Shown here one piece after another: positions 1,068 to 30,524 of a DNA stretch of 36,584 nucleotides (position 1 is the first letter of the stretch; each line of letters opens with the position of its first letter). The DNA lies in assembly GCF_000003605.2 (NCBI RefSeq), contig NW_003112484.1:54554-91137 (forward strand), given 5' to 3'. The notes below the pieces were generated by a model. That model ran no database searches. It was not told the DNA's origin and saw nothing but the letters and a program-made list of their open reading frames with translations. Source of the stretch: Saccoglossus kowalevskii. Lineage: Eukaryota > Hemichordata > Enteropneusta > Harrimaniidae. A program made the translations under genes and the position numbers.

Positions 1068-1135
1068 CCCGGTGCTATTATTGGTATCGATTCTGAATGG
1101 CGTCCAGCATTTGGTCCTATCTGTGAACCCGTCAA
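1068..1135 (+). CDS. EXD3: EXD3 exon: exonuclease motif I
   Basis: First exon visible in the window. It is preceded by a pyrimidine-rich acceptor (cttttcag) and followed by gtaagt. It encodes PGAIIGIDSEWRP and onward. The D-x-E pair is the metal-binding motif I of DEDD exonucleases. The exon ends after two bases of a Lys codon and the next exon supplies the third. It starts in phase 0, so an upstream exon must end on a codon boundary outside the window. Confidence 0.9.
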
Positions 1136-4100
1136 GTAAGTCATCAATGGATACAGTTGTAATAAGTACTTCTTAAAAACTGTCGATTTTGAGAAATGAT
1201 AAATTTATCAATTTTTCACTCTTTTTTTTCATAAGATAATAATGAGCACAGTGCAAAATATTTGCAAAATAAAGTTTGGATCAACATTTGAGACTTATTA
1301 CCATGGCAACTTGGAAAAATTTGGGTAAGGTCTGCAAGAAGTGTATTTGACTACCTAATCCTGTCAGTTCAGTTCCATTCACCGATTGGCAGCCATTTTG
1401 AATCAAAATTTGTAAACACGTCTCTGAAACAAATAGGGTGGATTTGGTTCAAACTTTGATTTGTGGCAGTTTTGTTTTTTTATTCATGTCCATGGTAACT
1501 CCTCTCTAATATATCACCTAATTTAGTTGAAAGTTTTCATACAAATACTTTACTCTTAAGTAATACTTAAGTAATATTCAAAATTCTAAAATCACAGTCT
1601 GTAAATGTGGAATCATTTTTTGCAAATGAACAAGATTCGTGTCAGGATCATACTTATTGGGTTACATGTGCATGTCATATTTTTGTTTAGATTGAACAAA
1701 AGTTAGTCAGCTGGCTATTATTTGAATTTTTATTATCCATGCTAGTTTCTGTGGCAGTATGTGTGATTATAATCACCACATTTTGTCAGTCATTTATTCA
1801 AGTCATGAAGCCCTTTGGTATTTAGATCTACATGACTATTGGTAATAACTGTGCATTGTCAATGTTTGCAGTTCGCAAGTAGTCCAAAAATGGGGACTTG
1901 TGTCCTGCAGTCCAGTCCAAGATGGCCGAATGGCAGCTATTTTAATGCTGAAATTCATCAAAATGAAACAGTACTATTTTTTTTTTTCAAGTCAGATTCA
2001 AAATAGCCGAATGCAATGTTTTTAGAGCCATGTTTCTGACATGCATTAACCGATTGCAATTAACCTCTACCACGTCATTTGTTTCATGTTCTGTTTGAAG
2101 ATTGCTGACATATTTCAGTTTTGTTTACTATCGAACTGACAGGGACCTGTTATATTATGACATGACCTGTTATATTATGGGAATGTGGATTGTTTATACA
2201 GATAAAACATGTGTCCATGTATTTTTATTTTCCAATATATTGTCAAAGTTTTTAATGATTTTGTTATAATCAGTTATGTTGTGCTTTTGTTTTCTTCTAG
2301 AGTGAGTTTGTTGCAGCTGGCATCTATTGATGCTGTGTTTATTTTAGACATGATGACCTTATCGCAGTGTGTTGACGTTGACATCTTGAAAGATTTTATG
2401 TTGAAATTGTTCACAACCCATGATATCCTAAAATTGGGTAAGTTTTATTTACTTAATATGCAGTGACTCCTCGCTAAGTCGCGCCTCAGTACAGTAAATC
2501 GCGATTTTGGCCAAGTCGCAGGTAGTTGGATGGCTCCCAAAAATTTTGTTGTTTTGCCAAAGGTTTTGAAGTAAAAGATCTAATGTTTTGTTGCATCTTG
2601 TATTTAGAGACAACTTAACACTTACTGTCCATCAATTAATGAGATACAAAAGGGTGATGGTAGCCTGACTCAAAGTGTCAACGAGCTGTCAAGTCGCAAC
2701 TTTACGTACTTTTCGCTCAGTCCCCCTTTTGATATAGCTCTTTAAAACTCGCTACAATGAGTTGAATCCATCCGGACATGGATGCTGTGAAGTTTTTCAA
2801 TAAAGAAAATGTATTATAAACCCATGTGTGTATATGTGCTTTTATCCATTTTCGATGCATGAACCTCTCTTTCACGAAGCCCCTCGGTAAATCGCGAACG
2901 CCGATAAGTCATGGTTTTTGCTTGGATCCTGACATCCGTGACTTAGCGAGAAGTCACTGTATTAAAAGTGGCTACAGTGACCGTGTAGGACATTTTTTGC
3001 CACCTCTACAAAGATCACACAATTGTTCTAACATGATTTGTAACCTTATTTTGTCTCCCAGGTTATGGTATTGATGGCGATATCAAAATGTTGTTCAAGT
3101 CCTATCCTTTGATGAGGAATGCAGCCGACTTGCAAAGAATTGTAGACTTAAGTGTGCTCACAAGAAATGTAAGTACACAACAAGACAAGCATTAACCTGA
3201 AGTGAATACCTCAGTTTGAGTGAGCATGCTACAGACTCCAGTAGGGATGGAGTTCAAAGTAACTGGCTGAGTTTCATTCACTGATGGAAGTGATGATCAT
3301 ACAATCCAGATTATAGTCCCAAACATTTAATATTTCTGTGGCAGTATGCTATGTGTTACAGTCATCATTTGCATTTTACACAAACAAAAAAATCAATGAG
3401 AGACAATAGTGTTGACATTCGATCAGTATTGGGGACTGTCACCTGACGTAAAAATATTTGAAACAAAACTTTACTTGTAATATCAGCATATTATTTTTGC
3501 AAGCCCTTTAAGGCAAAATGATGTGCAGAATATGACATATGCCAAATCCATCTCCACACGTTTTAAAGTCACATGACCAGGTTCAAGATACTGAGAAACA
3601 CATTGATAGAGAATCACAGTTATGAAATTGTAAAGGACACAGGAATCACTAATACTGTAGATTTCCTATTCAGGCCTCATCATGCAATTTTTTATAAAAA
3701 AATTATAATTTAATTGTTGGTTTGGCATGGCCCTTACCTCCTTTTGAAATCTTACACAAAATAAAGCTGCATAATTATTTTCATTTAAAAAAAAATTATC
3801 AAAACCTTTAGCTAATAGTAAAATTTGTTCATTTTGGACAAAATTATGAAAAAATATATAGAAAAATACGTAACAATTTATAAAATGTTGCATCAAGATT
3901 TGGCGGGAAAAAAAATGTTGGGTTCAAAAATATTGTCTCATTGATATTGTAAATACAATGCAAATCCAACAGATACAGAAAGAGTCACCTGAGTTACTAC
4001 AGAATAGCAGTACAACTGAAGACGCGAGTGGTGAAGGCAGTGGAAAGAAAGGAAAAGAAAAAGGCCTCAGCGAACTCGTACAACGCTGTCTTGGAAAACC

Positions 4101-7100
4101 TCTGAATAAAATGGAAAGACTTTCTGACTGGGAAAGGCGGCCTTTGAGACAGGCACAGCTTATATATGCAGGTATGTGTTAAGACCCCCTAACTTTCTCC
4201 AAAATCTTCAGCTTGTTAGTTCAGCAACGGATATTAAAAATTGTGGCAAACATCAAATTAAATAGAATGTTTTGTTCAACGTATCTTGAGGCATTATGTT
4301 GTGTCCTGTTACGTAAGCTATAGCGCATCTGGTATCAAATACATTCTCAACAGACTACTGTTAGTACTCCGTTGCCTAGACTTGTTTTTGTTTGAAAAAT
4401 GATAAATAAATATTGACAAGGATTTATACGATGTAACTTTCATAAACATGTGCGGTAAAGATCTCATGTAAAGAAAACTCTCTCGCTTTGCAAATATTTG
4501 GAGGCCGATCATACTCTAGCCAGTAGTGTCACAAATCGCATTGGGAACCTGAAAATTATCGCTGCATTAAAAATTAAAATGTATCATATGTTATGCAAAT
4601 AAGCAAGAAAACAATTTGGGATGAACACTTGTAAGTTCGTTACTAATCACTAATTCTAATTATGATTTCTAGTAATGTAGGTTAGTCATGTGATTTTGTG
4701 ATCATACAACGTTTTGAGTGAGATCTTCATTGTATATCACACCTTAGCATATTAATTGTGAATAATATTAATAATTTTTTATTGAATCATTGTTGAGATA
4801 TAGATAAAATTACAATAAAGAATACAATTGTAATAATAATAAAAAACACAGAAAATTCATTTGAAATAAAAGTAAAATAAGTACATTGCATAGATGGTAT
4901 GAATATTAAAATGAAATGTTTTTTACTGTAAGATAGTTTATCAAATTAATTGTATCAAATTAATTCCAAATCAGCTAGTTTACGTTCTCGTGTGAGTTGC
5001 ATAGGCAGTTCTTGTTTTGAAATTCGTCTATCAAAATTTTAACATTTTCTTGGATTTTGTCGGTGCATGATGTAAATTGTTCTCGAATATTTGAATGTAA
5101 CCTTGCACTTTACGGTTGAAATTGCATTTGAATCCCAAGACATCGACGAAATAATATCACGAGTAAATGTCACTTTGTTCTTGAGAGTTTTTGGTTCAGC
5201 TTTAAATGGAGTATGTTAGCAATGCCTAAAGGAATTCTTAGTAATTTAAGGTTAAAGTTCAAAGGTTAGTGTTAATGTTTTGTGCATATTCACATTGCAT
5301 GATTGTACACTGTTGGCAGTAAAACAAATATTTTAAATAAACTGGCAAACCTCTATCACCTTACTGAATTTTGATACAAATGGACATAATTTTGGAGACA
5401 CATGTGAAAAAAATCATCAAGGTTTTATTTTGTAAGGTGACAAAAGTTGACTCCCACACTCTAAGGGAATGATTATCGATTTCTCAAATTCTCAGACAAA
5501 TATCAAATTTTAAATGGTAATTATGCCAAGATATTCTAATAATAAAAATCCATCTGATAGAAACAGCGCCCTATATGTCTGTGTTTTACTATATCCCCAA
5601 AATGTAAGGCAGGAAGATCTTGCCAAAACATTTTAAATTTGTCAAAATACAATCATTTCACAACATTTATTTATAAAACATCTTGTAATAAATATAAATA
5701 CGTTTTTACTTTTTTGTTATCACTTTAGCATTAGATGCTTACTGCTTATTGGAAGTCTATGACCATATTAGGAATAAAGTGAAAGAATCAGGACTGGACA
5801 TAAACCTTGAGCCGCCACTGCCGAAAAAGACTCCAAAAGTTAAGAAAAGCAAACCTGATGGTGGCAGTGAAGGTGGTGGAAGTACTGATAACTCAGGAGT
5901 TGTCAAAGCAAGCCGTGCCCCGCAAGTAAGTTATTATGACCATCTATTTTCTGTTCTCTGTTATTTGGTCTACTATGTGGCTAAAGTAATTTTCGTCTAC
6001 TCATATTTCCTATTCGAGCAGCTGTGCATCAGTTGAAAATTGGTTGTTTTGGTCAAAAACTGTGTGGTCATTTCTGTTTGGGTAAGTTTTTGTATAATGT
6101 TCTACGTACAACATTAAAAGTATTCAACTCTTCAACATTATTTTAGTTTGTTGATGACTTTTAGGTGTTTGTTGATTAGGATTATTTCTGCAACAGTTTT
6201 GATCTTTTTTTAGTCCCTGTTCATATTTGGCACATACATCATAAATATTGTAGAATACATGTCCATGTCAGTTTGTTCATAATCAGATCAAAGATGGCTG
6301 TCTTGTTTTTGACCATACTACGATATCTCCAAGGCTTGTCTGCTTGTACTGCGTTTTCCAAAAAACAAAAAGTATTTCATATTAGGGGAGTTCAAAAGGC
6401 TATTTTGTCTAGGTTGCAAATTTTTTGGGGGTTTTCAGTTCTTCAATTATTCTATTATCCTATGTGAAATATCTTCTTTTTTTTGCAAACTTTGCCAATT
6501 TGGAAACACATTACCAATAATGAAGATTGTGTGCAAATACACCCTAAATGTTGTTAAAATACACATTTTCTTTTTGTTCACCCAGAGACCAGTAATGTTG
6601 CATCACCAGCCAACAGGTCCATCCATTTCTCCAAGCGAGTTCCATGTTGTATGTGATACCATGCTACAAGGGCTTGGTAGACAGCTCAGGTGCTGTGGTG
6701 TGGATGTACGGATACTAGACAACACAGAGGAACATGACAAAGCAGCCGAGGTGAGTCTCATGACAAGCACATGTCAGTCACATGTCAGGCACATGACAGG
6801 CACATGACAATCATGTCTCGGCCACATGTCAGGCACATGACAAGCATGTGTCAGACACATGACAGGCACATGTTAGACATTGAGGTTTGGATGTGATACC
6901 ATGCTTCAAGACTTTATAGTATATGCAAATGTTAAATAAATTATACTTGTTTTTCAGATTGCCCGAAGAGAAGGCCGTGTGATACTGACTTCAGGAATGC
7001 CATATCAAACAGTATGTAAATTCAGTTTTCCATCTTTTGTAACTTCTAAGACATGTATCTTGTACATCACAAAATTGTGAAAACAGTGAAACATTCATTG

Positions 7101-10100
7101 TCCCAGTGCTATGTTTTATAGTGACTTATTAGTTTCTGTGAGTGCTGTAAAATATTGAATTGACTCGTGCATATTTTGACATGAACACCATTTCAACCGA
7201 TGAATTTCAAGTGTTTTAAGATGCATTTATCTTCACTTGGCGGACTTTCTTAAAAGTTGTTTTTTTGAGAGCATTCATAGAGCTATTATGTGAAATATTA
7301 TGTGAAAAATTTGAGATGATTGCAGTTAAAAAAATTTGGATCCACCTCTGGTCTACAATATTTAAATTTGGAATTGATGGCAAACTTTGTGAATCCACAT
7401 ATATTTGAGCACTGTTCAAAAACAAAATTCAATGCACCACTGTACCATGTATTTCTATGGGCTCTGCGCGAGCTGCTGTGGAACGCCGGTCGAAAAGCTG
7501 GTGAATATAGCTGAATTCAAGAAAACAGCACAAACTCAACTTTAAAGTAAATTTGAGCAACCAAATTGATACATGTTAGACATGTTGGGGTAATCTTGTT
7601 ACACTGTTCGTGAGAGTCTCAGCAACCATCCCAAAGTACCATTTTCTGAGAGTATTCAGCCCTTGGTTTTCATGCAAAGGCTGCTAGGCAATGAAAATGC
7701 TTTGATATCCAACCCAGAGAATAGAAAGTGAAACAATCCTCTATCCACATAGTTAAGGAGCTGCCCTCTCTGATAGATTTCTTCTTGTATATTTTTCAAA
7801 GTCTGTAAAAAAGTAAGATTGTAAAATATGTCACATGTCAATAAAGTGCTATAGACACTTATTGAGTTCAATTTTAATGCATTATTGAAGGACAGAATAC
7901 GTATCCAGTCAATATAAGCTCAAATCCTGTCTTGCTCAGCAATGCCCAAATTGTGAATAGCATCGCAGAAATACAGACATGGTTAGGTCTTCTGATAAAA
8001 CGATGCAATACGCAACCTGTATACCATTTATTTCCAAAAATGACTAAATACAGCGGTATAGGAACATGGATAAAACAGAAATTGAACGTAGATTGCTCCT
8101 CATAAACATAATTTATGCATAACATTTGGATATCGGCGGTATCACTGTAACATCGAGTATAACGATAATAACTCCAAAAGTAATAATAGTATTAATGTTA
8201 TCGACATACTTGGGGTGCAAGAAAAAATATTAAATACAACAAGAGTTCAACTGGAAATCAAGTCCAGAATGCGGAGGCAACATGAATTCAATAAAATTAC
8301 CATGTCGTTTATTCGGTGTTATTTACTTGTTTAGTAATAGATAAGTTTTGAATTCCGTCGTTACCTCTGGTGTAAAATTTCAACGCATAAATGTTTGAAC
8401 AAATTTCGCAAACTAGGAATCAATTCTTGCACGTAAACTGTCTGATGTCGCTATAACTCAAAACTCGTCTATTGAACAACATTTTGAAATAATTAAATCT
8501 TTCCATAATATTTTCACAGCTGCGTTCTCAAGTCGGTGAGGGCATGTGTTTTTGTGTCAGCAATAGAAAAGCCAAACACCAAGTAAAAGAAGTACTGAGG
8601 CATTTCAATGTGTACGTAGCAGCTAGAGATATCTTTAGCAGGTGTCAGGTAAGCGTGTGATTATTTTGAGATGACCTACATCTGTATTGGCTGCAGAAAC
8701 CACAACAACAACCATGCCGTGCCACATTTGATATGGGACAGGAAGTCAGCCATGCACTACAAGACCACTGCAATGATTTAAAACCTTTTAGCGCTAAATT
8801 CAACTTTTGCCACAAAATAAAATATATTACGTTTTTCACAATTTTTTTTTCTCAAAATTTTGATCAAGACATGTAACTATAAGGAATTCTGTTAATTTGG
8901 TCCAAAATAATAAAAAAAAATACTTAAAAATGGTCAAAAGTGTTGTACCAAAACTATTGCCACCGTTAACAAAATAAAAAATATTACGTTTTTCATAATT
9001 TTTTTCAAAATTTAAGCTAGACTAAGGAATTATGTCCATTTGGTTCGTAATAACTTTATAAATTTAATAAAATTATGGAAAAATATCAGTACATAAAAAA
9101 TGGATAAAATGTTGTACCATAATGTTGGCAAACAAAACTATGGTATTGAAAGTATTAATACTATGTGTGATAGAAAGTGTTCTTAAAATTCTTATTCTGA
9201 GTCATTTTTCAAACTGATTGAAATATTTTTTTTTTCATGAGCACAGAATTTTGCAGCAGAATTACAAACTAAACTTTCACAGTCGGTAAACAGATTGTAC
9301 TGGTTTTTAAATGTACCTTGCCCGCATCATCAAAGATGGAAGGTTGAGGGATAATAAGTGAAAAATTTCTATCCGGTGTTGTCTTTGTTGTCGTTGTCAT
9401 CATCGTTAATAATTGTTATTGTGTGCACAATAACTTTACTAATTCTATCCCAAACTCTATCAAACTTAGTCATCTTATTTGCTATTTTCACTGATAAGTA
9501 AAATTCGCTAAATTGAGTTCAGTTGAACATGTGAAATAACAATAAAACTTAGTTTGTGAACTTAAAACCCAGTGAATATGTTCAAAACATCAAAATAGTG
9601 TAAATGCCAGTTAAAAAAATGTACGGATTTACATGATTCACCTTAGAGTGTATATTGAAATATTGAATACAGATTAGTATAAATTTTAATCACAGTAATT
9701 AATACACTGAAGTCAATTATGGCATACATTCTGTAAAATTATTATAAACCTACATATTTCTGAACTCAAACAGCAATTACGCATTGTACAATGACTTGAA
9801 GTTGGTACCGTCCAAGCTAGCCAGTCATCTCATATGATGTAGATAAGACCGATTCCAAATGTAATATGTTAAGCTTATAAAGTATAAAACATGCCTTTGT
9901 TGATTTCAGTGTATCAAATACATCGTCATTGGTAAAAACGAGTGACAAAGCCAATAATAAAACAAAAATCACAATAACAACAAAATGCAAATGCTAAGAT
10001 CATGAAATGTTGTCAAAAATCAGAAAGTGATTGACATGATTCTATTAAGATAAAGCTGAATTAAGATAAAGATAATTTGATTGGTACTTTTTTTTTAATC

Positions 10101-13100
10101 ATTTTCCCTGCTTATAGCCCAATAACAGTGTATTCACTGTAAACATCATCTTCACAATGAAACAGTTTATTTTCCTTATTTGGAAATCTTTCTTTACTTT
10201 CACAGTGGAACAGCCAACTTGCCTTATTTGAAACAATAGAACAGCCTGGTTTCCTTATTTTTAAATCCCACCTTCACAATCCAAAAGCCAACTTATTTGC
10301 CTTTTATGGAATTCCTACTGTGAAAAGTTGCAGATATCATCAAATTTTAATATCATACTGCAAAACGTTCACATTTATATGTCGCCCTCTTTTCATTGCA
10401 AGGGGTTTTTCATTCACTTTACTCAATCTTAGCTACTACATATTCTCCTTACAGACGCCTTTTAACAAGTACTGCAGAGAGCGTAGATTGAAAGGAATTT
10501 TGTTTATTTTCTGGAGTTTATCACTGCCTTTAGCCAACAAACATTACACATCCCAAAGACTCAACAAGTATGTTTATTATTATTGACTGTTTTGCAACTC
10601 TGTTTTTCTCAATCATTTGAACTTTTAGTTGTAAAACAGCATGTAATTTACATGTAAATTCATTTTCAAGGTTCATGTTTTGGCATAATTTTGTACATTT
10701 TCATTCTATGACTGTTTTGCAACTCTGTTTTTTTTCTGGATTTATTTGAACTTTTGGTAATCATTTGAACTTTTAAATTTTCGTTCTATGATGCATAAAT
10801 ATTACCTTTTTTTACTGTGTTTACAACGACTACATGTAAATTTGATGTACCCAGTCATATGATTCGCTGTAACATTGCACGCAGTGATTGCTTAATCTAA
10901 ATATACCAAAAGTTTATCAGAAGTCACCAAAGCAAATGACACTAGAAACGTTTTGGCTGATAGTGGTTCGATGGTTTCAGACAGATTGTAAAGCTGTGTG
11001 GAGAAGTAAATATCAAAGATGGCGGTACATGATTATATTCCGCTGCTGCGTTAACAACTACGTATACAGCGAATCGAAAATCTGCACTGAACTTGGGCAG
11101 TTGCTTCAATCACCCCAATGTATTGATACTCCACTTACATCGGTTAAAAAAACATTTGCACTCATTCACTGATTACAGTTAGAAATGTTTAATCTCAGAT
11201 TGAATTCAGGTCATACAAATAATCCGGCCGATGCTACAGCTAAATATGCCGTGCCGCCAGAGATCATGAACAATATACAGTTTGTATTGGGCAGTGTAGA
11301 TTGAATACGTTTGTGCGTATGTAAATGACAAAAGTATTTGTTACTTGTGTAAGCACTTTTGTAAATGATGACTGCGAGTCTATGATCATATTCAATAATC
11401 CATTATATGATAGTTGTAATTTTTGGTTTGTATGCACTTTTATTGGAGATGTGTCTTTAATAGAATAAATGTGGTATAGTCACGACAGTGCTACATGTAT
11501 GTCTGGTGTCCATTGTGAATTATTTGAGTTTTGGTTTTGGTGTCTTAGCTACCCTAAAGAATGTAGATAGATTTGATCATAATTGTTGGGCACTATGATT
11601 TTTTTGGAGATATGCTATCCAAACATGTGTAGATAACTTTTTTGAAAAATTACAATTTAGGGGTTAATTTTAATTTTCTGTACAATTTACCACAAAAATG
11701 TTCCTAAAACCTATTTTGATATACTGTATTTGCTCTATTAGAAGCGCATAATTAATTAAAATATTACACTGCCCATAGAAAAATCTCTGTAATTTATGTA
11801 AGCACATGTGGTACTAATAGAGAAAAATACGGTATTGAATTCAGATTTTGTTGTGATCATTATCCTCCCCTGCCTGACTGCTCGCCCTGTTCAAAATGCA
11901 AAGGAAACTTTGTTTTACCAGTAGATGTAACAGTTGTATACTTCTTTTAAATCTAAGTTGCTTATACCGGTATACGTTTTTTTTGTTCTGTAGGTGTGCA
12001 ACGGAAATCAGTATATAACCATTCCAGTGGACACCATGAAACAAGCAATTGCACAGAAGAGGAAGGCGAAGGACGTGGACGTAGACGGAGACCGACTCAA
12101 TGAGCAGCAATCGTTGGAGTTAGAGCTAATAGAAGGCACTGAGAAAGCGTACGACATTCAGCGAAAAGACAGAGCGATTGAAGGTAAGGAAATCGAAGGT
12201 GATGTGTCATGTGCAGAGCCGAATGATTGTGATTCAGATGAAGAGATGGTTACCGAGAAGACAAGTAACTGTAGTTCGATAGCATCACAAAATGTTGGTG
12301 CTGCTGATAAGGTTGTTAAGAAATTAGATGTTGCGACAGAGGAAGTGAATGATGAGAGCGACAGTGACGATGACGAAGATGACCAGGTGATGGAGTCTGG
12401 ACTTCTGTGTAACCAGAATAGTGACAGCATGGCGATCAATAAAGAGACCTGGACACTGGAGAATGGGGTTGCGATTCAGCTTGATCGAATACACGATAAT
12501 GTTATCGAGGAAGTGAACGAAGTCTACTGCTGCGTAGCTTGTGGTAAATTAGTATGGAGAGGCAAGCACTTCCGACGAATTTGTAAATGTTTTAAGTTCG
12601 GCCGTCAAACTATATCTAAATAAAGCCATTCCAATAAATTGGAATACTATATTTTATGAAATTCATAAATATGTGATTAAATGTTACTGTAAATATAGAT
12701 TTTGTATATTTTCATAATTTGTGGGAATGGAAAAAATAATTTGTTTAAAATTGAATTGTTTTCTGTAAACATGTTATTTCTAAATTTTAAATGAAAGTAT
12801 GTAATCAATATTGAAATGAATTGCTATTTTTTTAAATGTACATTAATTTAAGTTTTATTTAAATAATACATGTAGTTTTTGTACTGTAGAATTTTTTTTT
12901 TCTTGGAGTCTATTGTTTGGTGAAATAACAAAAGTTAGAAAAAACACTACAAAAAAGATATGGATATCTGGATAATCAGCCATGCTAGACTTGATTAATA
13001 TACTTGTACCATTATAACTGTTGATTTGATGAATCACATCAAGCAGATATTATTGTGTCAGAAGTTAAAAATGACTGAATAATCTAGGATGGATGCAGTT

Positions 13101-16292: not shown

Positions 16293-17842
16293 CGACTATG
16301 TTAATTAGTGTTTCCATAGAGCTGACTTTATGACAGTAAGGTAGTATGTAGAGTCCAACAAATTTGTTGCTCTCTGCAGTACGTGATATACTTCCCTTTC
16401 AAATTATGTTCGAAATCATTATACAGTCAGTATTTATTCTATTTTTAATCAAGCTGGTGCAATTTAAGGGAGAAAGTATTTGATGGTTCAATGGTTTTAG
16501 AAGTGGAACCCATAAAACATGCATCAACATACATAAACATATACAGGTCAAATGTTCTGTTAAGTGTTATGTTACACTTGATTAGTTAGTACTTTTGACT
16601 CCAGTCTGTTTTCCATACAATTGCCCTATGTTTATAAACAAAACATGATTGCTTGGTTGAATTTTTAATTAGCTGAACGTCAAACAAGATGCTTGTCCAT
16701 TTGAATGAGATGAAATAAATTTCTGGTTTTGGTTGAATTATGTGCATATTAATTACTTAATTTGCATATCTCAAGAACAGACCTCAGTGTGACTTTATAT
16801 ATAAATAGAATATTCAACAAACCTGATTAGCTCAGGATTGAAATATGTGCATATTAATTACCTAATTAACATATATTATATTGTTAATTATTCTAAATAT
16901 TTAAATTAAGTTTGATCATAGACCCTCCAGTAGACTAGAGGGTCTATGGTTTGATACACAAGTGGTCTGGAATACTCAAACTTCTTTTTTGTTATTACAT
17001 TTGTAGTTAATATTACAAACTTCTGTAGATCACTCTGCTTTAACATTGTGCATTTAATACGCAGAAGCTTCTTGTTAGTGGGCTAGTCTTAAATATTTCC
17101 TATATCCGATATTTTATGCTAATACCCTCAGCACATGGCTTTTCTTCTTTATCTTCTTTTAATTTTAATTATGTTATCTTTCAATCAAATTTGAGTCTGA
17201 TATTTGAGGTTTTGAGTTTATCGCCATTTCCCACTTCCGTGGTTAACCCTCTGACTGCCAGATATTTTTTTCGCCCCAAATTCAATGCAAATATTTTCAC
17301 ATTTCTTAAAATTGTCACTAAATTCATCATCATTTTGTGCCATACAGACAATTTTAGGTATTGGTTTTAGGGTTTCATCAAAAGTTTGTCAATGTTTTTC
17401 AACATTTCATGTTGGGAGGGAGCAGAGAGTAGAAAATTATGTATTTTGTAGATGGTGCCAAAAGTTGACAATGGTACTCAAAAGGTCAAATGTGGCATTT
17501 TTGTATGACTTAAAAATTGTGTGTATTACTTGGTAGTAGTTTTTGCCAAATTTTATTATGTGTTCATGAACTTGAACGGCTAAGAGTATAGAACCATGGG
17601 CATTAAACACCTTTTTATGAGCACTGTAGATATTCTGATCAACTCTCAACCTTTTAAACAATCCAGGGTACAAATCCAGTTTTTTTCAGAACAATTTCAT
17701 CTTTATAGTTTGAGGTTACCATGGATGCGGTTTGCAGTGAATTTATCATTTAAAAAAAAAAAAAAACATTTAGAAACTCCATGGTTAACATAAAATGATT
17801 GTAAATATATACTGTATTTTTTAAAATGTTATTTTTGCATGG
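16293..17842. other. EXD3 3' UTR and AT-rich intergenic DNA
   Basis: The 3' UTR probably runs to about 16735. Beyond it I see a repeated atgtgcatattaattac motif (about 16740 and 16842) and a perfect 11-bp stem (catagaccctc, 16917-16927, with 16938-16948). No gene is visible. Confidence 0.6.
16714..16719 (+). terminator. polyA signal for the distal EXD3 end
   Basis: AATAAA followed by T/TG-rich DNA (ttctggttttggttg), 420 bases after the stop at 16292. This is a normal 3' UTR length for the distal isoform. Confidence 0.55.
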
Positions 17843-17844
17843 TA

Positions 17845-18101
17845 TACCATCAACACAACAAACCTGTTTCTACATCTGTATTAATATTTATAAATTTATT
17901 TATATATTTATAAATTTTAATGACATTTGAATCAAACCAGCCAATCAAAGAGCACAGAGCACAACGTACCCCGGTATTACTTGAAAAATGTCCCAATATT
18001 ATTCAATCAGCAAATACAAACCTCTTGTTTCTATTTGATTTGTTTTAAATTTATAAAAAAAAAAGATAGATGAAGGGAGCAGGTTTGTTGTGCCAAGGGT
18101 A
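17845..18101. mobile_element. TA-flanked MITE with ~35-40 bp inverted ends
   Basis: The left end is TACCatcaacacaacaaacc; the right end, read inverted, is TACCcttggcacaacaaacc. Similarity continues to an atctgt/atctat motif. Both sides carry TA (17843-17844 and 18102-18103), as for Tc1/mariner-type insertions. The interior is A/T-rich with no coding. The superfamily is inferred only from the TA and the termini. Confidence 0.75.
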
Positions 18102-18268
18102 TAGCAATTTATTTATATATATATAATTTTTACAGTCAACTGATGTATTATTTGATTTGTATGAAAAAAACTGAAATAACAAAGAACTACCGAAAACAAA
18201 AATTGCTTTCATTTGTGTAACTGTAACAAAGCTAGTGTACCCATATATGAGTTGTGTTCACGTTACAC

Positions 18269-18899
18269 GAAGTACGGGCTAAGATTTAAGCTGATTTAGG
18301 CTTATCTAGCATATTTGCATTTCGGCTAGAACCAATTGCGTCCACGCACAGGGAGGGTCAGTCGTTAGCACGGGCTAAGGGGTGCCATTAGTCGGTGACC
18401 TTTGGTAAGCTGCTATTTACGAACGAAAAATGGATGACACGCGCGAGGTTCTATTTCTGCTGCTGGCATGTTTCGTTCTAATTTTGAAGTGACGTGCACA
18501 GGAACGCGAGAGAAGACGGACCCAACTTATTTGGATGCACAGAAACAGTATACAACGGGCGTAACAGAATACAGAGTTTTATTAATGCATGTCGCAGACA
18601 GCGAACCAAATTTATTTTGTCTACAATTGGAGCTGCTGTACGCTCTACTACAGCGACCCGATCAGTGTGGAAGCAAGCGCGGAGTAATGACTGGTGGAAT
18701 AGAGTCGTTATACGAACATGGGACAATTTTCACACCCAAAGGTCGCCGCAGAGGGCGATTAGCCCTGGGCTCGCGCATACTTCGTTAGCCCGTGCTAAGG
18801 ATCTAGACCGCGTCTTTAATTCGGATCAGATTTAACCCGTACTTAGCATTCCTTAGCCCGTGCTAAGCGTTCACACACGTTTTCTTAGCACGGGCTAAG
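18269..18899. mobile_element. Non-autonomous element with TTAGCACGGGCTAAG repeats
   Basis: A 15-bp motif recurs in both orientations. Forward copies are at 18365-18379 and 18885-18899; inverted copies are at 18785-18799 and 18853-18867. A related agtacgggctaag at 18271-18283 pairs with ttaacccgtacttag at 18832-18846. Nested inverted repeats around a transposase remnant suggest a deletion derivative. The exact outer ends are uncertain, and TTA/TAA at the motif edges would fit the 3-bp target sites of Harbinger elements. Confidence 0.6.
18430..18760 (+). pseudogene. PIF/Harbinger-like transposase N-terminal remnant
   Basis: The remnant starts at ATG 18430 (MDDTREVLFLLLACF) and is broken by TGA at 18490-18492. 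It continues in the same frame with an Arg/Gln-rich stretch (RAQERERRRTQLIW) and then shifts frame. In the second frame it reads RRQRTKFILSTI and later SVWKQARSNDWWNRVVI. The Trp-rich RS-x-DWW-x-VV block before the catalytic domain is typical of DDE_Tnp_4/Harbinger transposases (recalled family pattern). Nothing of the DDE catalytic region follows. One stop, at least one frameshift and the truncation make it non-functional. Confidence 0.55.
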
Positions 18900-18905
18900 G
18901 AATTT

Positions 18906-21900
18906 GACTCCGACCTTTAAACTACCCCCCCCCCCCCAATTCAATTGTGTGTGTCCCTCTGAATAATTATACATGTCCTTAAGCGGGGCATATACAATTA
19001 ATTTGAGGGGGCAATAGAAGTTAGTGGTCAGGTTAAAATTAGGATTAGACCCCGCCTACATTGGAAAATTCGTTCTTATTAGTATTTATCCTTTCCATGT
19101 GGTACCCTATTCAACTGCAATTTTGGGGTGTCAACAAGTTGTAGATTTCTGATGTAACCCCCCCCCCCCCCAGCTTTAGCTGTCTGGAAATATTTACCTC
19201 CTATATAAATCAATCCTGTGTTACTGAATTAACTGAACGTTTTTTTAAAAAAAACAATGCTTAGAAGATTTTGTGTTGTGTCCCGAAAATGTGTAATACA
19301 TTATTCCGGTAGTGACCACCCCTCCTGTAGTGAATGGTTGTCCCTAGATTCTTGCATAAATAATTGTTTTGGTGTTGTACCTTACCAGGTGATCATAATA
19401 TAGTGAAAGTGTTACGATCGGCCTGAGAAAATTCACGCTGTCTCTCAACATGTCGACAAGGTATGGTGATTTTCACGGTCCGTTACTTAGCACCGTCCAT
19501 CCGGTGGTCGTCAATCAGCGCTCTCGTGAGAGTCTTGCTGTTCATGTCTCATCCGAATGTTCAGCTTGGTCGACGCGCTCGGTACAGATAAATTACAGAG
19601 GCTGGTGGACACGTGCAAGACGCAGCTATTTTTCAAATATTTACTGACAATGCCCTTACGTGAAGTATGACAAGTATCAACATTAGCTCTATTTCTCTTG
19701 TTATTGCATTGTCCTCCATAACTCGGTTGATCAGTTATCCGTTGTCAGGTGACTCCGATCCACATTCCCGAAGACAAAGCCGAATTCGACGAAGCAGTTC
19801 GCGTAGTATGCATGGACGCTATTCCAGTTACACTTTCTTGTGATTTACGGCGGAATTTAACTACTGAGGGCGCATGTCGTACCCGCGGGAGGTGTCTTCC
19901 GCCGAAGTGATAATAAAACTAATGGGCCGAAGAGTTATAGTTTCTGTCACATTTTCTCGATGTTTGACATGTTTCAAGTATTTGCGGAGATAGGTGACCC
20001 ACTTGTCACGAGGGCGTGGACCGTGGAGGAAACTGTATCGTCTTGTGTCATCTTCGACCTTGTTCTTAGGTATGGTTCAGTCCCGGGTCTGTTTTGTATT
20101 TCAATTGTTGCGCCCTCTGTCGGCATTCATGCGTTACTAAGTTGTTCCTGTGAGGGTCCTCACGTGCGCAGGAAAAAACTAAAAAATGAGAAGATTGTCA
20201 CGTGAGCCAAGTATTCACATTTTCGGTGATATTCTCAGACCTAAAGTTTTACAGAAATTTGATGATAGATCTCGTCTCACTTATATGACTTTCTCGCAAC
20301 GTCGTGTCATGTTGATTCACTGAACTGTTACGACTTGTTGAAGTGATAATCGTCTCGTGAAACATAAAAACAATAAACATGTTTCCCCGTTCTCGGTCAT
20401 ATTTCTACGTACAGTCAAACCACTTGTGCAATCGGTCGACACATTGGGTCTGATTCCATGCGTGTTGACTGTCATGGGAACTGGTAGATAACCCCTCGAA
20501 TATAAATTTGACCGAATCATTGTTCACACCTTTATTGCGGTTGGGGGGGGGGGGTAAATGTATGACCGGTAGTTGCTAGGGAACAACACAAATCTGAAAT
20601 ATTCATATGAAACTGCCCGGGATGGGATGGGGGAGAAGAAGCATCTACCGTTAATGGTGTTGGGCACCGGGATCTAGGTTCAAGTAACGACAAAGATACA
20701 CACTGTCCCACAACCACATCAATTAGCCTCATTGGACTCTCAGCGGAATTGGAATAGCGAGTGAAGGTTCTTGACCTCCACTAAGTGCCCGAAGGTAGTT
20801 GACCCACCGACGACATCGTATTTACAATCAAGGCGTTATATATGTGTGCAGTTACTCGTAGTGTTTTTTTGTTTTGTTTTTGTGAACTACTGTGTCAGAC
20901 ATTACTGTAACAGTGTTCTTTCTTCCGTTTTTTCTTCTTTATTTTTGCCGCACAAAATAGTATTAAGTAAACCGTACACGGTCAGGGTCGTTGCTTGGTA
21001 ACGCTTCCCATTTATCTGTGGGGGAGCGACAGTTGAAAATTTAGAAAACAACTATGATTCACGCGATTTGTTGCTCGTAACGACGCACTCAGTAACGTGA
21101 AAATGGCTAATACGGATCTTTTCTGGAATATTTGTTCATATATTCTAAGATATAGCTATCATCTACACAGTTTAATGGAGTATATATTCATTGTTTGAAC
21201 GCAGACAATATCAAGTTGGTGTTCTGAAACAATGAACTGTGCAAGTGCGCATGTGCTTTGAATTACTGTTACGTACTATTACTAGTAATTACCAGTAAGT
21301 TGTGTGCATTCAACGTAATGTATTTATCATGTGACAGTCTCAGTGGCGGGAACGCTGCGCGCTGTGCAGTTCGCAAGATAGCGTTTCAAATTTGAGATTA
21401 TCGCTGTGTGTATTGGACGGTCCCGGACCAGTTTCCGAGTTTAAAATTCAATTTCACACACTTTTTTTTCCAAAACATGTTTATTACGCAGTTTTACTAG
21501 TTGTATTTCGCTAAGTGGAATGATATCTCAAGTGGGGTTTGTGCTATACCGTGCAATGCTCCCAAACTAAGGTCCCTGTATCGCAATCATGCAGAACGAC
21601 TGCATTCTGTACATACGGGTGTATGATACACCTTCTCCCACTTGTTCGACACATTGTTCTTTTTCAACAAAATATACTAGATAGATACATGACCGGACCC
21701 ATAATGCGTCGTTGCGTGAGTTTTACTCTGTGGCTCTGTCTTTGATACAAGTTGTAATGAATAATGTTTAAAACCTCACAGTCGTTCGAATTTCGCATGA
21801 ACAAGTGATTATGGATTTTACACGCGTTGTAAACATCGCGTCGTACCCCTATAAAACAGGACGCGTTGTGGCTGTGTCTCTTCGAATAGCGTACTTTCAG

Positions 21901-24900
21901 AACGGGAAAGTCGGCGTTTTAATTTCACACATAAATCTAAAGTAAACTGATATGGTGCAACTCGTTTTACGTGACCGCGATTTAACAGGAAGTCGATCAG
22001 CGTACGAAACCAGTCACGATTGGCTATTCTTCAATGACCTGAACAGGGCTGCATTAGTGTTACATTCATGTGCAAGCCTTGGACTATTAAACATGACAAC
22101 ACCGTTTTACAGATATTATCATTAGTATAAGCGCTGCATTTGAGGCTAGATGGCGTCGCTACATGTAAATCGAAATTATAATTTAAAACACAAATTATTG
22201 AAGTTTCTCTTAAATGCAATTCAATGGAATGCATTGTATCTTGATTAAACGTGAACCTGGTTCTGGCATTCGGCGTGGTATTGCTCACGCACCGCCGTTC
22301 CTCAAAATGACGAAATTGCGTAAATATGGATGTTTTTTACTGAACCTCCGAGAAATCAATAAAAAACATTATTACCTTCAAAGTTTTTTCTTGAGAGACG
22401 GTCTGGTTGCATTTTAAGTCAGGGGCGTCGATAGGGAGGGGGCAATGTCAACATTTTTACCAAATACTGCGAATATACTTCCCTATGAACCACTATGAAT
22501 ACCAGTGCCATGGGTCACTACTCACAGTATGGCCAGCGCCCAAAAAGGTAATTTTGCGAAATGCCATGGGGTTTTGTTTTGGCGTTATATGATTCGTACA
22601 CAGCTTGGGGGTGATTGGGTCAAATCTGGTGAAACAGATCTAGCGTCCGAATCATTCAAGCATTGAACTAATCACGAATTGTATCCACTTTGAAAAACTT
22701 TAGAGATCGCGTTTTACAGCACACAATTCTCGCGATATCAAGTACATGTACGTGGACTAGTTACATGCGAATCGCCGTTCTTTTTGTACTCCCCGTAATT
22801 GTCTTGTTGGGTTAGGCTTAATAGAGAAATTATACCAGCTCGTTCTCATCTATTAAATGTGTGGTTCATTATGGTAATCTACCTCTGCGTGGGAAAGTCC
22901 GTAATTTGTTGTTGACAGCGTTCAGTAGAGACCAGTGTGAACTTGATATACGGGTCACGTTGTCCCCACACTCGCACAGCCGACATCAGTATTCACGCGA
23001 CTCCAAGTCGTAAAAGATTTATGATGACATTTTGTGTTTTTTAATCACTGCTTTACGGTATCTGATATTACGACTGGTTGTTTTACCATGTGCACCGTGT
23101 GCTGTTGTGGGATCAGTACTTAACTGGCGATCTCAGGACACCGGGGCACCGCCCGGGTGAGAGAGAGTACGTGCCCGGCCACTGCTGACGGATGACCTCC
23201 TGGTTGACAAAACCGGCGTAATTTTGTAGACGAATTCCCGAAAAATGAAGAATTTCTAATGTTTCCTCTTAAGGTGGGATTGTGTACCAGTCGGTGGTTA
23301 AAATAACAGTAAAACGGTGTACAGAGGCATGTTAATAGAAAGCGTTTGATATCGCATTACTGTGTTTTTAAAATGGGAGTAGTCGTTTGTTTCCTGGCGG
23401 AATGATACGATAACGGATACGAGTGTCGATTCCACGTGTACGTACAGTGAACGGCGTGTTCACATGTACTTGTCCCGCTAACAGACCGCTTTTATCATGG
23501 GACCTATCATGTCTAACTTCCCATATATTCCGATAAGGCGATATTTGTGCCGTATTTCCCCCGTCCTATGTGGTGGTATCTTACTCGCTGGTTCGTGTAC
23601 CGATTGTTTGTGACAGATGAATCTTGGTTGAATTATCTAGCACCTGGGAACATTGTAGTCATGGCAACGACGCTATCCAAGTTGCGCCTGATAGATGCAC
23701 TGATAGAAGGGAAACGCCGAACAGCGTTTAGTGCCGGGATGGTACAAAGACAGCACTTTGAATTACCTTGGGCTGGACTATTATTTTACATGCTAGTTAG
23801 AATCAGGTAAAAAAAACGGACAGAGAAAATGAGATGTTTCAGAGCCTGTGAGAAAAAGTATGGCGAATTTCACAATATGCATACTACTGAACTGTCCGCT
23901 AGTTTTTACCTGACCAACCCCGTAAATATTATGATCTTATCCAGTCTATAGTTCCAGGTTCACTGCTTTTCTTTGTCCTATCAGTTATAGTCAGTATACT
24001 TTCCTAACACGTAACAGTTTTATGTCGTTTTACTAGTCGTGTTTGAATATGGTATACTGTTAATTGTCCCATCAATTCATATTTTCCTGGAAACTCCGCT
24101 CAGCTCCGAAATGGGGACTGTGATCGAACATATAATTTCGGTGTAATCAAAAAATGAAAAACGGTGCATGTTGATTACATCGCACATGTGTCTGTTTTTG
24201 AAATCTCAGTGACCTCCAATGTGGCCCGGTGATTTATAAATCAAAAATGACAGCGTAATATGATAACAATGTATTTATAATTAATGTATAATGTATTACA
24301 TGTATTAATACCATTTCTTATTCTTCATCTTCAAGTTGTCATATTGTCAGCTTTGTTTATGATTGTACAGTAAATTACTACTGTAAAGTTTTTGTTTAAA
24401 TGATTCATTCGTCAATTTAAAGTTAGTTATTACAAGTCTGAAAAAACTCGTATCATTTCAATAATATACCGAGATGAATGAAGCGATATGAATATATGAT
24501 GTCAACTTGATTCTGTACCTCATTGACAAGGTGATACACGCCCTCAATCGACGAATTGCTTCCATGACGTAATGAGTGCAATGAGTCTATTCGTAGTCAA
24601 GTTGTTATCGGTGGTCGGTCGTCAATACAAAAATGATTTACAATATTCTAAAGAATGACATAACCAAACAGTTGTCGTTTTGCACCACGACACTGTGTTA
24701 ACATGTATCTGCATATATGTCATTTTGACGTCATGAAATGAGTCGCCGCTGGAGGGCGCGTCCTATGTGGAAGGTGAGTTTCATGAATGTCACGTATAAT
24801 TCTATGTTGTTGTGCCCATACCCGGGGTATGTTTAACCAGCCACGACCATGATAAAAAAACACGCTCCGAGTCTTGCTTGTCGCAATTAAAAATGATTAA

Positions 24901-25603
24901 CAGGTGGCCCGGGCCACGGAGAATAAACACGGAGTGAACAAATTCAAACGTCTTCCAAAAATTTGTCATTTTTAACTAGTGCATAGACCTTTATTTGAAA
25001 ACTATGTAACGATAACACGGTTTCTATTTTCGCGTGATTTCTCATTCATGTTTGTGTGAATCCGTGTAGTGATTATGTGTTTTGCCCAGAGCCTCAATTC
25101 ATTAATAACGTCAAGCTAACTGTAAACATAATCGTGAAATCGCATGCACCCCTGGTGTTGAAAACAAATGGAAGACGTTCACCACCAACTCTCGAGTCAC
25201 ATGACATCTGCACCCGACGAGATCGGATCGTAAAATACACAAAGAAAAACATGAAGTGACAAGTCGCGACTGGAGCAGTGGCGGGACACAAGAAATTCAA
25301 TATCCTCCCAATAAATTTAATTCTGGGGAGAGAAATTGGGGGTAAATCGATTACCACGGTGATTTGTTATTACGTATTTATTTTCGAGGTGTGAACAGTC
25401 ACGGAACGGACACTCATTTAGTACGCTACAGTGTTCATCTGCCATTTCAGTTCCAAAGTGGGATGTTTATTACTGATCACAGGCGGGACCCATACAGCAC
25501 GGCGACAGCAAAGCGGTATGTTGGGTCATGGCGAGGAAATTAATCAGCGGTCATTGAACTTTTTATGTACATGAGCAGTTGAATTGTTAAATACAAAAAT
25601 ATC
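18906..25603. other. CpG-rich intergenic DNA, no recognised gene
   Basis: No frame here resembles a known protein and all are short. CpG is far more frequent than in the EXD3 introns. I see C-runs (about 18926 and 19160), a TATAAAA in CpG-rich context at 21850-21856, a CSL-type site at 22888-22895, and a TGACGTCA at 24726-24733. It may hold distal regulatory DNA or non-coding transcripts, but nothing proves this. Confidence 0.55.
22888..22895 (+). promoter_or_regulatory. Candidate distal CSL/Su(H) site
   Basis: CGTGGGAA, a perfect match to the RBPJ/Su(H) consensus YRTGDGAA, about 7 kb downstream of NRARP. A single 8-mer in a 36-kb window can be chance. Confidence 0.3.
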
Positions 25604-26428
25604 ATGGCGGGGTATAATTTAAATTGGAAATTTACAAATATGGAGGGGTATAATTTAAATTGGAAATCTACTACAAATATGGAGGGGTATAATTTATATT
25701 GGAAATCTACAAATATGGAGGGGTATAATTTATATTGGAAATCTACAAATATGGAGGAGTATAATTTAAATTGGAAATCTACAAATATGGAGGGGTATAA
25801 TTTAAATTGGAAATCTACAAATATGGAGGGGTATAATTTGAATTGGAAATCTACAAATATGGAGGGGTATAATTTATATTGGAAATCTACAAATATGGAG
25901 GAGTATAATTTAAATTGGAAATCTACAAATATGGAGGGGTATAATTTGAATTGGAAATCTACAAATATGGAGGAGTATAATTTAAATTGGAAATCTACAA
26001 ATATGGAGGAGTATAATTTAAATTGGAAATCTACAAATATGGAGGGGTATAATTTAAATTGGAAATCTACAAATATGGAGGAGTATAATTTAAATTGGAA
26101 ATCTACAAATATGGATGAGTATAATTTGAATTGGAAATCTACAAATATGGAGGGGTATAATTTAAATTGGAAATCTACAAATATGGAGGGGTATAATTTG
26201 AATTGGAAATCTACAAATATGGATGAGTATAATTTGAATTGGAAATCTACAAATATGGAGGGGTATAATTTAAATTGGAAATCTACAAATATGGAGGGGT
26301 ATAATTTAAATTGGAAATCTACTACAAATATGGAGGGGTATAATTTATATTGGAAATCTACAAATATGGAGGGGTATAATTTAAATTGGAAATCTACAAA
26401 TATGGAGGGGTATAATCTAAATTGGTAA
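25604..26428. repeat. 36-bp minisatellite, 23 units, open on both strands
   Basis: The unit starts atggaggggtataattt and ends with tacaaat. Repeats are nearly identical. They vary at a few positions: GGG/GAG/GAT near the start, TTA/TTG, and AAT/TAT. Units 2 and 20 each carry an extra 3-bp cta, and each is followed by a TAT-variant unit, 651 bp apart. The plus strand is open from ATG 25604 to TAA 26426-26428 (274 aa of MEGYNLNWKSTN-type units). The minus strand is open over 25540-26436 as well. Without other coding evidence I call this a repeat, not a gene. Confidence 0.92.
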
Positions 26429-29400
26429 ATGTACAAACAACCATTTAGGATCCAAGTAGCTGCTGAGCTAAGATTTTCTCACGCAAAAAAATCACGCGTC
26501 TGTTTGCAATTTTCAATCATCCGACTATAATGTTCCAACCCGCTATATTTAACAGTGTCTGCGTGCATGCAGCCGTGGGGTCATGGACACGCTAGTTCCA
26601 CAGGGGGCACCCTGTCCTATCGGGAAAACAGTATGCGGTTTAATAGTCACATTTGCAAAGCTTGTGCACTCATCAAGACCACCTCGTACTTGTGCACATG
26701 TAAACAACACGCGCACAATCAAAAACTGTTCAATGTAAAAATGGGACAATATGTTTTGGTTTTTGGTCACCCGTGGCGCTAAACAGGTCCTTCGCGGAAG
26801 TTATCGCCTTCTTATTTTATTATCCGTGCACGGCGTCTCGAACCTTTTCAAGAGCAACTAAGACGGAACTGTGCCAAAAGCCCGTATGCTGGCTGGATCA
26901 GTATTGTCTGTCACACTGCAAGCGTGTTGTACGGCTTTGTCGGATTCAACGGGTCAGTACACTGTACTGGTGCTAACGGGGGTGCATTCTCCATTAGTGG
27001 TACAACACGTGCCTTTGTTACCACACTAACAAAAGCAACCACCTTCTTTCTGCAACGCTTATACCCCACCCCCTTCACTCTGATGACAGGAACCCTGGAA
27101 CCACAAATGACTTAGACACGAGTTATGTTTTATATACGACAATTTTTTTTAACTGACAATTAGGGAACAAGTAAAAAATATATACAACCATCGTTCGTTT
27201 ATCATAAAATTATCCAATACTGTAAAAAACAAACATTGGTAAATTTGATAAAGTAACTAAGAGAAAAGCTCAGTGACAGTGAAAAAGTTATTCATGTAAT
27301 AAAGAAGAGTACCATCTTGAACACGTGTAATCCTATCCCCATCAAAGTTTTTTAATCGAACTGCGTCTTAATTGCAGTGGTAGAGAGGCAGCACTATAAA
27401 TAGATTTCCAGTTGAGTCGAGGCATAAATACAAGACATAAATAATTTGATATGTCGAAAAAAACTTTCAACAAACAAACAAACAAGCTACTCTCTGGTTG
27501 GTCTGACAGAGTTTGGTGTTGAGTTGGGTAGCCAATCAGGTACAGTTTTGTAAGTAGCTTCCATTTCTAGTTTCGGAATTCAAACCAGGTTTCAAACAGC
27601 GGCGACACATCGACACACAGCTGGTGCTTTTTTGTAGAATAAACGAGAATGTGGCGTTCACTGCACTTGGCGTTGCCATGGTGCTAAGGTGCGTATCCTT
27701 CATCACAGTTATGTTATGATTGGTCTTTTGGATGTAACACCACCACAACCATGGCAAGACGTGCTTTCAGAACGAAGCATCGAAAATGAAAAAAAAGTAA
27801 CATGTTTCGAAAACAAGGTTCCAAAGAGCAATACTGAAAAGAACTGATTTATATTTGGAATCAATTTATACAGAACGACATTACCAGCAACAATCACCAG
27901 TCTGTGTCAAAAACGTCCCTGCAAACTTCAATTTTACCCAAGCTTTGAAGAGAGGCACGTTTTATTTTATTTTGTCGCAAAGCCATTTGAAACAGCGACA
28001 TGAATCACTGCGGTGTGCTGACATAAGTTTGAATAGAGAAAACGACTTGAAGCTCGAGTCCGATAAGGCCGTTGAATGGGAGAGACTGGGACCTTTTGTC
28101 CAGAGCTCACATTACAACGTATGCTCTGGTCGACAAGGGCTTGCACAGAGAAAGCCAACTCATGCCAAACTTTGCCCCAGTTTCACAATACTCTACTTAA
28201 AAAGGGCAAAGACGAATACATGTTTTTCTCAACCTGTCTGCGTATTCAGCACTCTAATCAATATACCTTCGACATTACTGGCCAAAACTGCACCTTCTAA
28301 AAATATAAACAACTTGAGAAATATCACAAATTAGTGACGTAATTATCACCATGGTCACAGTGTATTGTCAACGTAGTGAGTACAAGTCCCTATTCACCAC
28401 GTGCGTGACTTATCAAAAATATATCAATTACAATCTATAAAATTCGTAAACAAGTCTCTACAAATTCGAACGTTTTATGTATATATATTGTAATTAACTG
28501 TGAAATATATATATTATGCAAATCTTTACCGTAATATACATATAGTACATGTCTTTTTCTTCAAAAAAAATGTAATAAGGAAAACCAACTTTCAAAAATA
28601 CATTTTTCGTACAATTTGTTCCCTCCAATAAGCGGACACAGACCAATAAACTATATATTTTAAATGCAACTTATAATCAGATGCGGACAACGATCTGTTC
28701 TTGTTAATCAATCCACTCAACAACTATGTACCAACTAGATAACCGTTTTTTTTTTTTTGTAAACTAGAGTTGCCTTCGTGTAGTCGGTTGCAACAACATC
28801 GAGGACACTGAACATGCCCATGATCCGAAAATGTTTTGAATGTTTTTTTTATAAGTTTCTATATAGACCTCAGGTCTATGGTTTCTAGCACCAGAGAAGT
28901 TGTGTTCGCCTTGTATAATGAGGCGTACAAGAAGACATTTAAACCATAAATAATGATCCTGTACATCGTCCTTGGACAAACCAATATTTAAAGGAAGAAA
29001 CAGTTATTTTCTTGGAAAGTTGCAATCTGTGCACGTATGGCCGCTAAGAGCTTTTCCGTTGCTGAACTAACGCGAAACAGTAAACTGAAGACGAGCCAGT
29101 TTCTGAAAACGTAGCATAACAACACGTCCATGTTGACAGCTGGGATACACATCATAGTGGCGTACATTGCCAGCGTGCCGAGAATCCATTCTGCTACTAG
29201 TAAATACAGCTAAAAGATGCGCCAAGTGTTAATTGGTAGTAATTCTTGTTAACACGGTGAACTCATCACCATGGAATACACGCTTTGTACAGCGTTCCAA
29301 AGTGAACAAACATGGCCCCGGCACTACGTATGCATTACTGCCATTGCAACTATGTGACCTCAGAAATAGGCATAGCGAAGGTCAATGAGGGCAAATCACA

Positions 29401-29693
29401 CGCCGGGGGAGCTGGCTCGAACTTGAAAACTGCTCGGTGAAATAGCTCTGCCTACCCATAGTGGCATACGAATCCACACTCAAACGGAATCCTTCTGAGG
29501 TAAAATGTTGAAATCGGGAAAGGTGTTAACTATTGTAGAGTTTAGTTAAATGGTGACTGATATTTACAACACGTTTAGTTATATATATACACAAGATGCG
29601 ATTTCAATGTAAAAAAATACAGGGTGTTACTTCCCTCGCACTGAATTAGAGTCGTGTAGTTCTTGGTCGGGTCCACATTGACGGTCCTCCTGC
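26429..29693. other. Intergenic DNA downstream of NRARP, including its likely 3' UTR
   Basis: The 3' UTR of the minus-strand NRARP should lie in the upper part, just below 29694, but I see no clear minus-strand AATAAA close to the stop. A 159-residue open frame at 27855-28334 on the plus strand has no recognisable domain. A ~70-bp conserved-looking element lies at 27478-27550. Confidence 0.5.
27478..27550 (+). repeat. Left arm of an inverted ~70-bp repeat flanking NRARP
   Basis: Contains ctctctggttggtctgac and ttgggtagccaatcagg. It matches the reverse complement of 33515-33587 over its whole length with scattered substitutions and a one-base gap. Each copy carries two CCAAT-type cores facing each other. 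Confidence 0.75.
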
Positions 29694-30014
29694 CTATCTT
29701 TTACAGCTATTGACATTTGTTATTAAGTATAGGGCGATATCCTCGTGTCCACCATACGCCGCGATGTGCAAAGCGTTCCAACCGTCGCGGTTGGCCAATT
29801 TTACATCAGCTCCGAACTGAACGAGTAATTTGACTAGCTCGAAGTTGCCATCAATGACAGACTGGTGTAGCGCAGTTTGTCCCTCGCAGTCAAACATGTT
29901 AACGTTGACGTCCTGCCTGGCCGTCTCAAGCACACGAGCAAGTTCGGTAGTATCGCCATTTTTGACTGCTTCATGGAATACCTTTTGGTGAGGGGATTGT
30001 ATTTGTGCCGTCAT
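29694..30014 (-). CDS. NRARP: NRARP: Notch-regulated ankyrin repeat protein
   Basis: Single-exon minus-strand gene of 106 aa; the vertebrate protein is about 114 aa and also intronless. ATG is at 30012-30014 in good context (acaATGa), with an in-frame stop upstream at 30090-30092. The N-terminal helix QKVFHEAVKNGDTTELARVL leads into two ankyrin repeats, about 45-77 (GQTALHQSVIDGNFELVKLL) and 78-106 (GWNALHIAAYGGHEDIALYL). The signature blocks TALHQSVIDGN and LANRDGW are diagnostic. In vertebrates the protein binds the Notch intracellular domain and RBPJ on DNA and lowers Notch output; it is itself a direct Notch target. A CSL site and two CCAAT boxes upstream fit such feedback. Convergent to EXD3, about 13 kb from its end. 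Confidence 0.96.
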   Translation of the reverse strand: MTAQIQSPHQKVFHEAVKNGDTTELARVLETARQDVNVNMFDCEGQTALHQSVIDGNFELVKLLVQFGADVKLANRDGWNALHIAAYGGHEDIALYLITNVNSCKR

Positions 30015-30516: not shown

Positions 30517-30524
30517 CGTGGGAA
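30517..30524 (+). promoter_or_regulatory. CSL/Su(H)/RBPJ binding site in the NRARP promoter
   Basis: CGTGGGAA is a perfect high-affinity RBPJ/Su(H) octamer, about 500 bases upstream of the NRARP start codon. I found no inverted TTCCCACG partner at the 15-17 bp spacing of a paired (SPS) site. The position, ahead of a gene known as a direct Notch target, makes function plausible. Confidence 0.55.

Follow-up and report, generated by a model that had tools for sequence, protein, structure and literature searches.

Ancient microsyntenic gene pairs of metazoans, the subject of a 2012 study by Irimia et al., reportedly combine a developmental regulator with an unrelated neighbour that stays next to it in different phyla. 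Another conserved pair is that of NR6A1 and NR5A1, which occupy a single locus in both human and mouse according to PMC3923872. For EXD3 and NRARP, the mammalian arrangement can be read from published gene lists. The order is TOR4A, NRARP, EXD3 in a human list (PMC4074351) and ENTPD8, EXD3, NRARP, TOR4A in a cattle list (PMC6304683); both lists look chromosome-ordered and give no strand. A human 9q34.3 peak of 84,660 bp contains COBRA1, C9orf167, EXD3 and NRARP, as stated in PMC6764480. The human sources thus agree with the preliminary description of this locus, where the two genes were given as direct neighbours in human, and the cattle list places them together too. Other papers that name both genes list them apart. 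NRARP binds and inhibits the Notch intracellular domain-RBPJ complex (a passage of PMC8229355), and paired (SPS) sites control mammalian Nrarp (a passage of PMC7561103).

Here we analyze the corresponding genes of the acorn worm Saccoglossus kowalevskii in a stretch of 36,584 nucleotides, referred to below as the window (contig C656:54554-91137). No description of EXD3-NRARP as a conserved pair was met in the main texts among the literature matches listed. The main texts of PMC8851819, PMC13317027 and PMC11175523 name neither gene, and PMC6543554 names NRARP in a reference only. Mentions of NRARP in the amphioxus, sea urchin or hemichordate literature numbered zero among the matches listed.

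EXD3 and NRARP in the acorn worm

Nine joined exons on the plus strand (1068-12623) form an open frame of 561 aa, with the stop codon at 12621-12623. Exonuclease domain residues are found in the first recognised exon (1068..1135, including IDSEW), in exon 4 (3973..4171) and in exon 5 (5729..5925), where the domain ends (DAYCLLEVY); exons 2 (2301..2437) and 3 (3062..3168) lie between. The Mut7-C domain starts in exon 6 (6586..6750), which is followed by exon 7 (6958..7011) and by exon 8 (8520..8648), again Mut7-C. The zinc-ribbon end of this domain and the stop are encoded by terminal exon 9a (11994..12623). All eight introns are GT-AG with matching phases, and their lengths range from 207 to 3345 bases.

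In the joined protein, Pfam places DNA_pol_A_exo1 (PF01612) at residues 5-188 (E 1.8e-15) and Mut7-C (PF01927) at residues 257-373 (E 3.9e-23), both above cut-off. This is the Mut-7 exonuclease architecture, a 3'-5' exonuclease domain and then Mut7-C in one chain. The top solved relatives are chains 7jw2 and 7jw6, named 'Exonuclease mut-7 homolog', followed by 8q66, 'Exonuclease mut-7'. Judged from its sequence, the gene at 1068-12623 is an EXD3/Mut-7-type exonuclease. No 5' exons of EXD3 were recognised within the window, and the missing ones are probably upstream, in a part of the contig that reads as N. A transposon-like insert with 33-nt inverted ends (82% complementary) occupies 2451-2969 in an EXD3 intron. 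Also present are tandem repeats of 33-bp and 11/33-bp units, at 439-669 near the left edge of the window and at 6759-6873 directly after an EXD3 exon.

A second Mut7-C terminal ORF, 9b, lies 3.1 kb beyond the stop of EXD3 (15741..16292, plus strand, 183 codons). It is a diverged copy of the EXD3 terminal piece, with 25 of 60 residues identical to exon 9a in an ungapped alignment; the shared part is the zinc-ribbon end of Mut7-C. Its Pfam Mut7-C score is 32.5 bits, compared with 21.5 bits for exon 9a alone. The ungapped similarity over 60 aa suggests that ORF 9b is, or was, coding. The piece at 15.7-16.3 kb was rejected as the true last exon of EXD3, as a good in-phase acceptor precedes exon 9a, which ends in the gene's own stop at 12623. 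Inspection by eye of ORF 9b did not reveal a pyrimidine-rich, in-phase splice acceptor, and no other EXD3 exon was found repeated in the readable contig sequence. ORF 9b may be an alternative last exon of EXD3, one that has no clear acceptor.

NRARP is a single exon on the minus strand (29694..30014), encoding 106 aa plus stop. With the whole protein as the PDB query, 6py8 (NRARP) ranks 12th of 352 sequences by E-value, after long proteins with many ankyrin repeats; it is aligned in one collinear stretch, residues 9-101 on 14-107. When the first 54 residues are used, 6py8 is the best of 10 (residues 9-54 on 14-60). The product is a short ankyrin protein with a single domain, and it aligns collinearly with vertebrate NRARP beginning in the N-terminal region. 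By these matches, the 106-aa protein is NRARP, the ankyrin-repeat feedback inhibitor of Notch.

Each gene was found in a single copy in its own genome. These searches covered the readable part of the 572-Mb, 4830-contig assembly and scored the best candidates (150 of 206 for NRARP). NRARP gave one full-length match, and the next best of the 40 matches listed is 38% identical. All nine EXD3 matches are on the contig of the window, ORF 9b being one of them. A search for the exonuclease family pointed to three loci on two other contigs. Identity to EXD3 is 25% and 35% at one of these loci, and the other two yielded no match with the E limit set at 1; thus, they were rejected as further copies and taken for different exonucleases.

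The same assembly includes a mitochondrial genome of 17,037 bp (contig C4830), with COX1 on the strand opposite to most genes and with ND5 and CYTB adjacent. ATA occurs at three sites of COX1 that we take to be isoleucine in other animals. Across the 12 genes counted, AAA is used 47 times and AGG 0 times, and the tRNA-Lys anticodon is UUU. A passage of PMC3121625 reports for the mitochondria of this species AUA as Ile, AAA as Lys, a missing AGG, tRNA-Lys UUU and the COX1 inversion. PMC2697986 gives the same ATA and AAA readings and the ND5-CYTB adjacency. These features place the host among acorn worms, as Saccoglossus or close kin; on the mitochondrial code and the tRNA-Lys anticodon, an origin from a vertebrate, echinoderm, lancelet, tunicate or pterobranch was rejected.

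The window and its contig

EXD3 (plus strand) and NRARP (minus strand) are convergent. The interval from the EXD3 stop to NRARP (12624..29693) measures 17,070 bases, is free of N and includes ORF 9b and a 36-bp minisatellite (25604-26437; 23 copies, 94% matches). The minisatellite yields long open frames on both strands. There is no N anywhere inside the window, and N stretches touch both of its edges. A six-frame Pfam scan (E up to 0.1) returned pieces of EXD3 and NRARP plus one FAM47 match (25638-25829), which falls on the minisatellite and was dismissed as spurious. Such a scan is weak for small exons, to the extent that EXD3 itself stays under the cut-off, and an additional many-exon gene is thus possible in the window.

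Both gene identities given in the preliminary description are borne out by the Pfam domains, the solved relatives, the open spliced frame and the collinear match to 6py8. The convergent arrangement is likewise as described, with no N between the genes. The statement that these are the only two recognisable genes is correct for the window and fails for the contig, where NR5A, an NR6A-like gene and others are present.

Nuclear receptor genes are found at C656:179377-181028 and 202411-204870, both on the minus strand and ~95-120 kb from NRARP. One is NR5A (FTZ-F1/SF-1 type), in which 64 of 74 DBD residues are identical to NR5A2. The second was detected by Pfam as LBD exons, for which the NR5-type receptor FTZ-F1 gives the best match among solved structures; no second nuclear-receptor DBD was found on the contig. 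From their residues, these LBD exons look like NR6A (GCNF). The human genes EXD3, NRARP, NR5A1 and NR6A1 are presumably all on 9q, and the NR5A and NR6A-like genes weakly support a neighbourhood shared with that arm. TRIM-NHL and WD40 genes also occur elsewhere on the contig and were left out of the synteny evidence because such genes are numerous.

Visual inspection of the readable contig ORFs of at least 95 aa, 10 of which were also checked with Pfam, did not reveal TOR4A, NELFB, NOXA1 or ENTPD8. As 70,599 of the 227,460 contig bases are N (156,861 are readable), this negative result is weak evidence either way.

The window contains five CSL-type sites (YGTGRGAA), compared with 4.9 expected, and no consensus site is found within EXD3 (1068-12623). 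The 3.1 kb around the NRARP start hold a single site, a count reached by 186 of 500 simulated sequences. No CSL pair with both halves perfect was found within 45 bases. A head-to-head CSL (Notch) pair is predicted at 30517..30547 (no strand assigned), 503-533 bp upstream of the NRARP ATG. It reads CGTGGGAA-N15-TTCTCAAC, with one perfect half, a partner matching at 6/8 positions and a spacer of 15. Under a relaxed definition (one perfect half, a partner of at least 6/8 and a spacer of 15-17), there are three pairs in the readable bases of the contig. The probability of such a pair in a simulated 2-kb upstream stretch is about 0.011, a value obtained with a threshold set after viewing the site. 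Since these thresholds were chosen after looking at the site, we treat the pair at 30517 as a lead. If it is real, acorn-worm NRARP would carry Notch input near its own promoter.

Age and persistence of the pair

EXD3 and NRARP are adjacent in acorn worm, human and cattle, a comparison across two phyla. The retention of this unrelated pair between an invertebrate and vertebrates, as claimed in the preliminary description, is therefore supported for one hemichordate and two mammals. Taking a round number of 20,000 genes, a particular gene would by simple arithmetic fall directly beside another with a probability of ~2/20,000, or ~1 in 10,000, which makes shared descent a much better reading than chance. 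Going by the adjacency in acorn worm and in human and cattle, the neighbourhood is probably as old as the deuterostome ancestor, or older. We infer that the ancestor shared by hemichordates and vertebrates already had EXD3 and NRARP side by side and that the acorn worm has kept them so; against this stands the comparison of one invertebrate with two mammals. We favor the reading of an ordinary pair of orthologous genes in an old neighbourhood, which most likely persisted because gene order is lost slowly, and give this reading a probability of roughly 0.85.

Independent joining of EXD3 and NRARP in hemichordates and vertebrates would also produce neighbours in both groups, and it would accommodate the apparently different orientation. 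Just three species are compared, which leaves it some room. We nevertheless regard it as very improbable given the ~1 in 10,000 figure, and the NR5A and NR6A-like genes on the contig, with human counterparts presumably on the same chromosome arm, also speak against it. Hardly credible is an assembly error that joined unrelated pieces between the two genes. Assemblies can slip at a repeat such as the 23-copy, 36-bp minisatellite that lies between them, but the window is without N and a false join would need to recreate the mammalian neighbour by accident. A genomic regulatory block, in which NRARP enhancers in EXD3 introns or beyond would have held the two genes together from the deuterostome ancestor onwards, is consistent with the confirmed adjacency in acorn worm, human and cattle. 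A developmental regulator beside an unrelated gene also fits the general model outlined in a passage of PMC3923872.

We consider such a block unlikely here. CSL motifs are at background in the window and absent from EXD3, the one paired candidate sits close to NRARP, and the EXD3 introns seen are short. No paper linking EXD3 and NRARP in this way was found among the matches listed. The suggestion of the preliminary description that NRARP regulatory DNA may lie inside EXD3 is so far unsupported by these counts, with the caveat that the absence of a motif is no proof against it, and the regulatory half of that earlier interpretation is so far speculation. In addition, given the apparent change of orientation, a block of this kind would have had to tolerate an inversion. 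The wider form of the idea, a deuterostome-wide or bilaterian NRARP block that came through a local inversion, with orientation-independent enhancers within EXD3 or past it, is more doubtful still.

In human, we take EXD3 and NRARP to be both on the minus strand, with the 3' end of EXD3 towards the NRARP promoter. With this presumed arrangement on one side and the convergent one on the other, a single inversion of either gene would explain the difference. A local inversion of EXD3 or NRARP since the common ancestor may thus have altered the orientation, provided that the human genes are indeed on the same strand. Under the preferred reading of an ordinary ancient pair, a gradual erosion of gene order inside a chromosome that is itself conserved would most likely account for the persistence of the neighbourhood. 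NRARP would probably take its Notch input from a site close to its own promoter, and shared regulatory DNA is a possible constraint on the pair.

These results would place EXD3, encoding a Mut-7-type exonuclease, and the Notch feedback gene NRARP among the pairs that have apparently remained linked from the deuterostome ancestor, or an earlier one, onwards. With its apparent change of orientation, the locus offers a concrete case for weighing shared regulatory DNA against slow rearrangement.

Comparison with known neighbourhoods

The closest counterparts are found at 9q34.3 in human and on chromosome 11 in cattle, where EXD3 and NRARP adjoin as they do in the acorn worm. The genes are convergent in the acorn worm, whereas in human they are presumably on the same strand. 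A further difference from human and cattle concerns TOR4A, NELFB, NOXA1 and ENTPD8, which went unrecognised by eye in the readable acorn-worm contig.

The NR6A1/NR5A1 locus is similar in being a conserved pair that is apparently present on the acorn-worm contig too, with an NR6A assignment that is tentative. It differs in that these genes are separate from NRARP, at a distance of about 95-120 kb in the acorn worm.

Unlike the pairs attributed to Irimia et al., EXD3-NRARP was examined in one invertebrate. It resembles them in that NRARP is a developmental regulator kept beside the unrelated EXD3. As a case of an ancient gene neighbourhood the pair is a good example, if an ordinary one, and its deep synteny has good support between a hemichordate and mammals.
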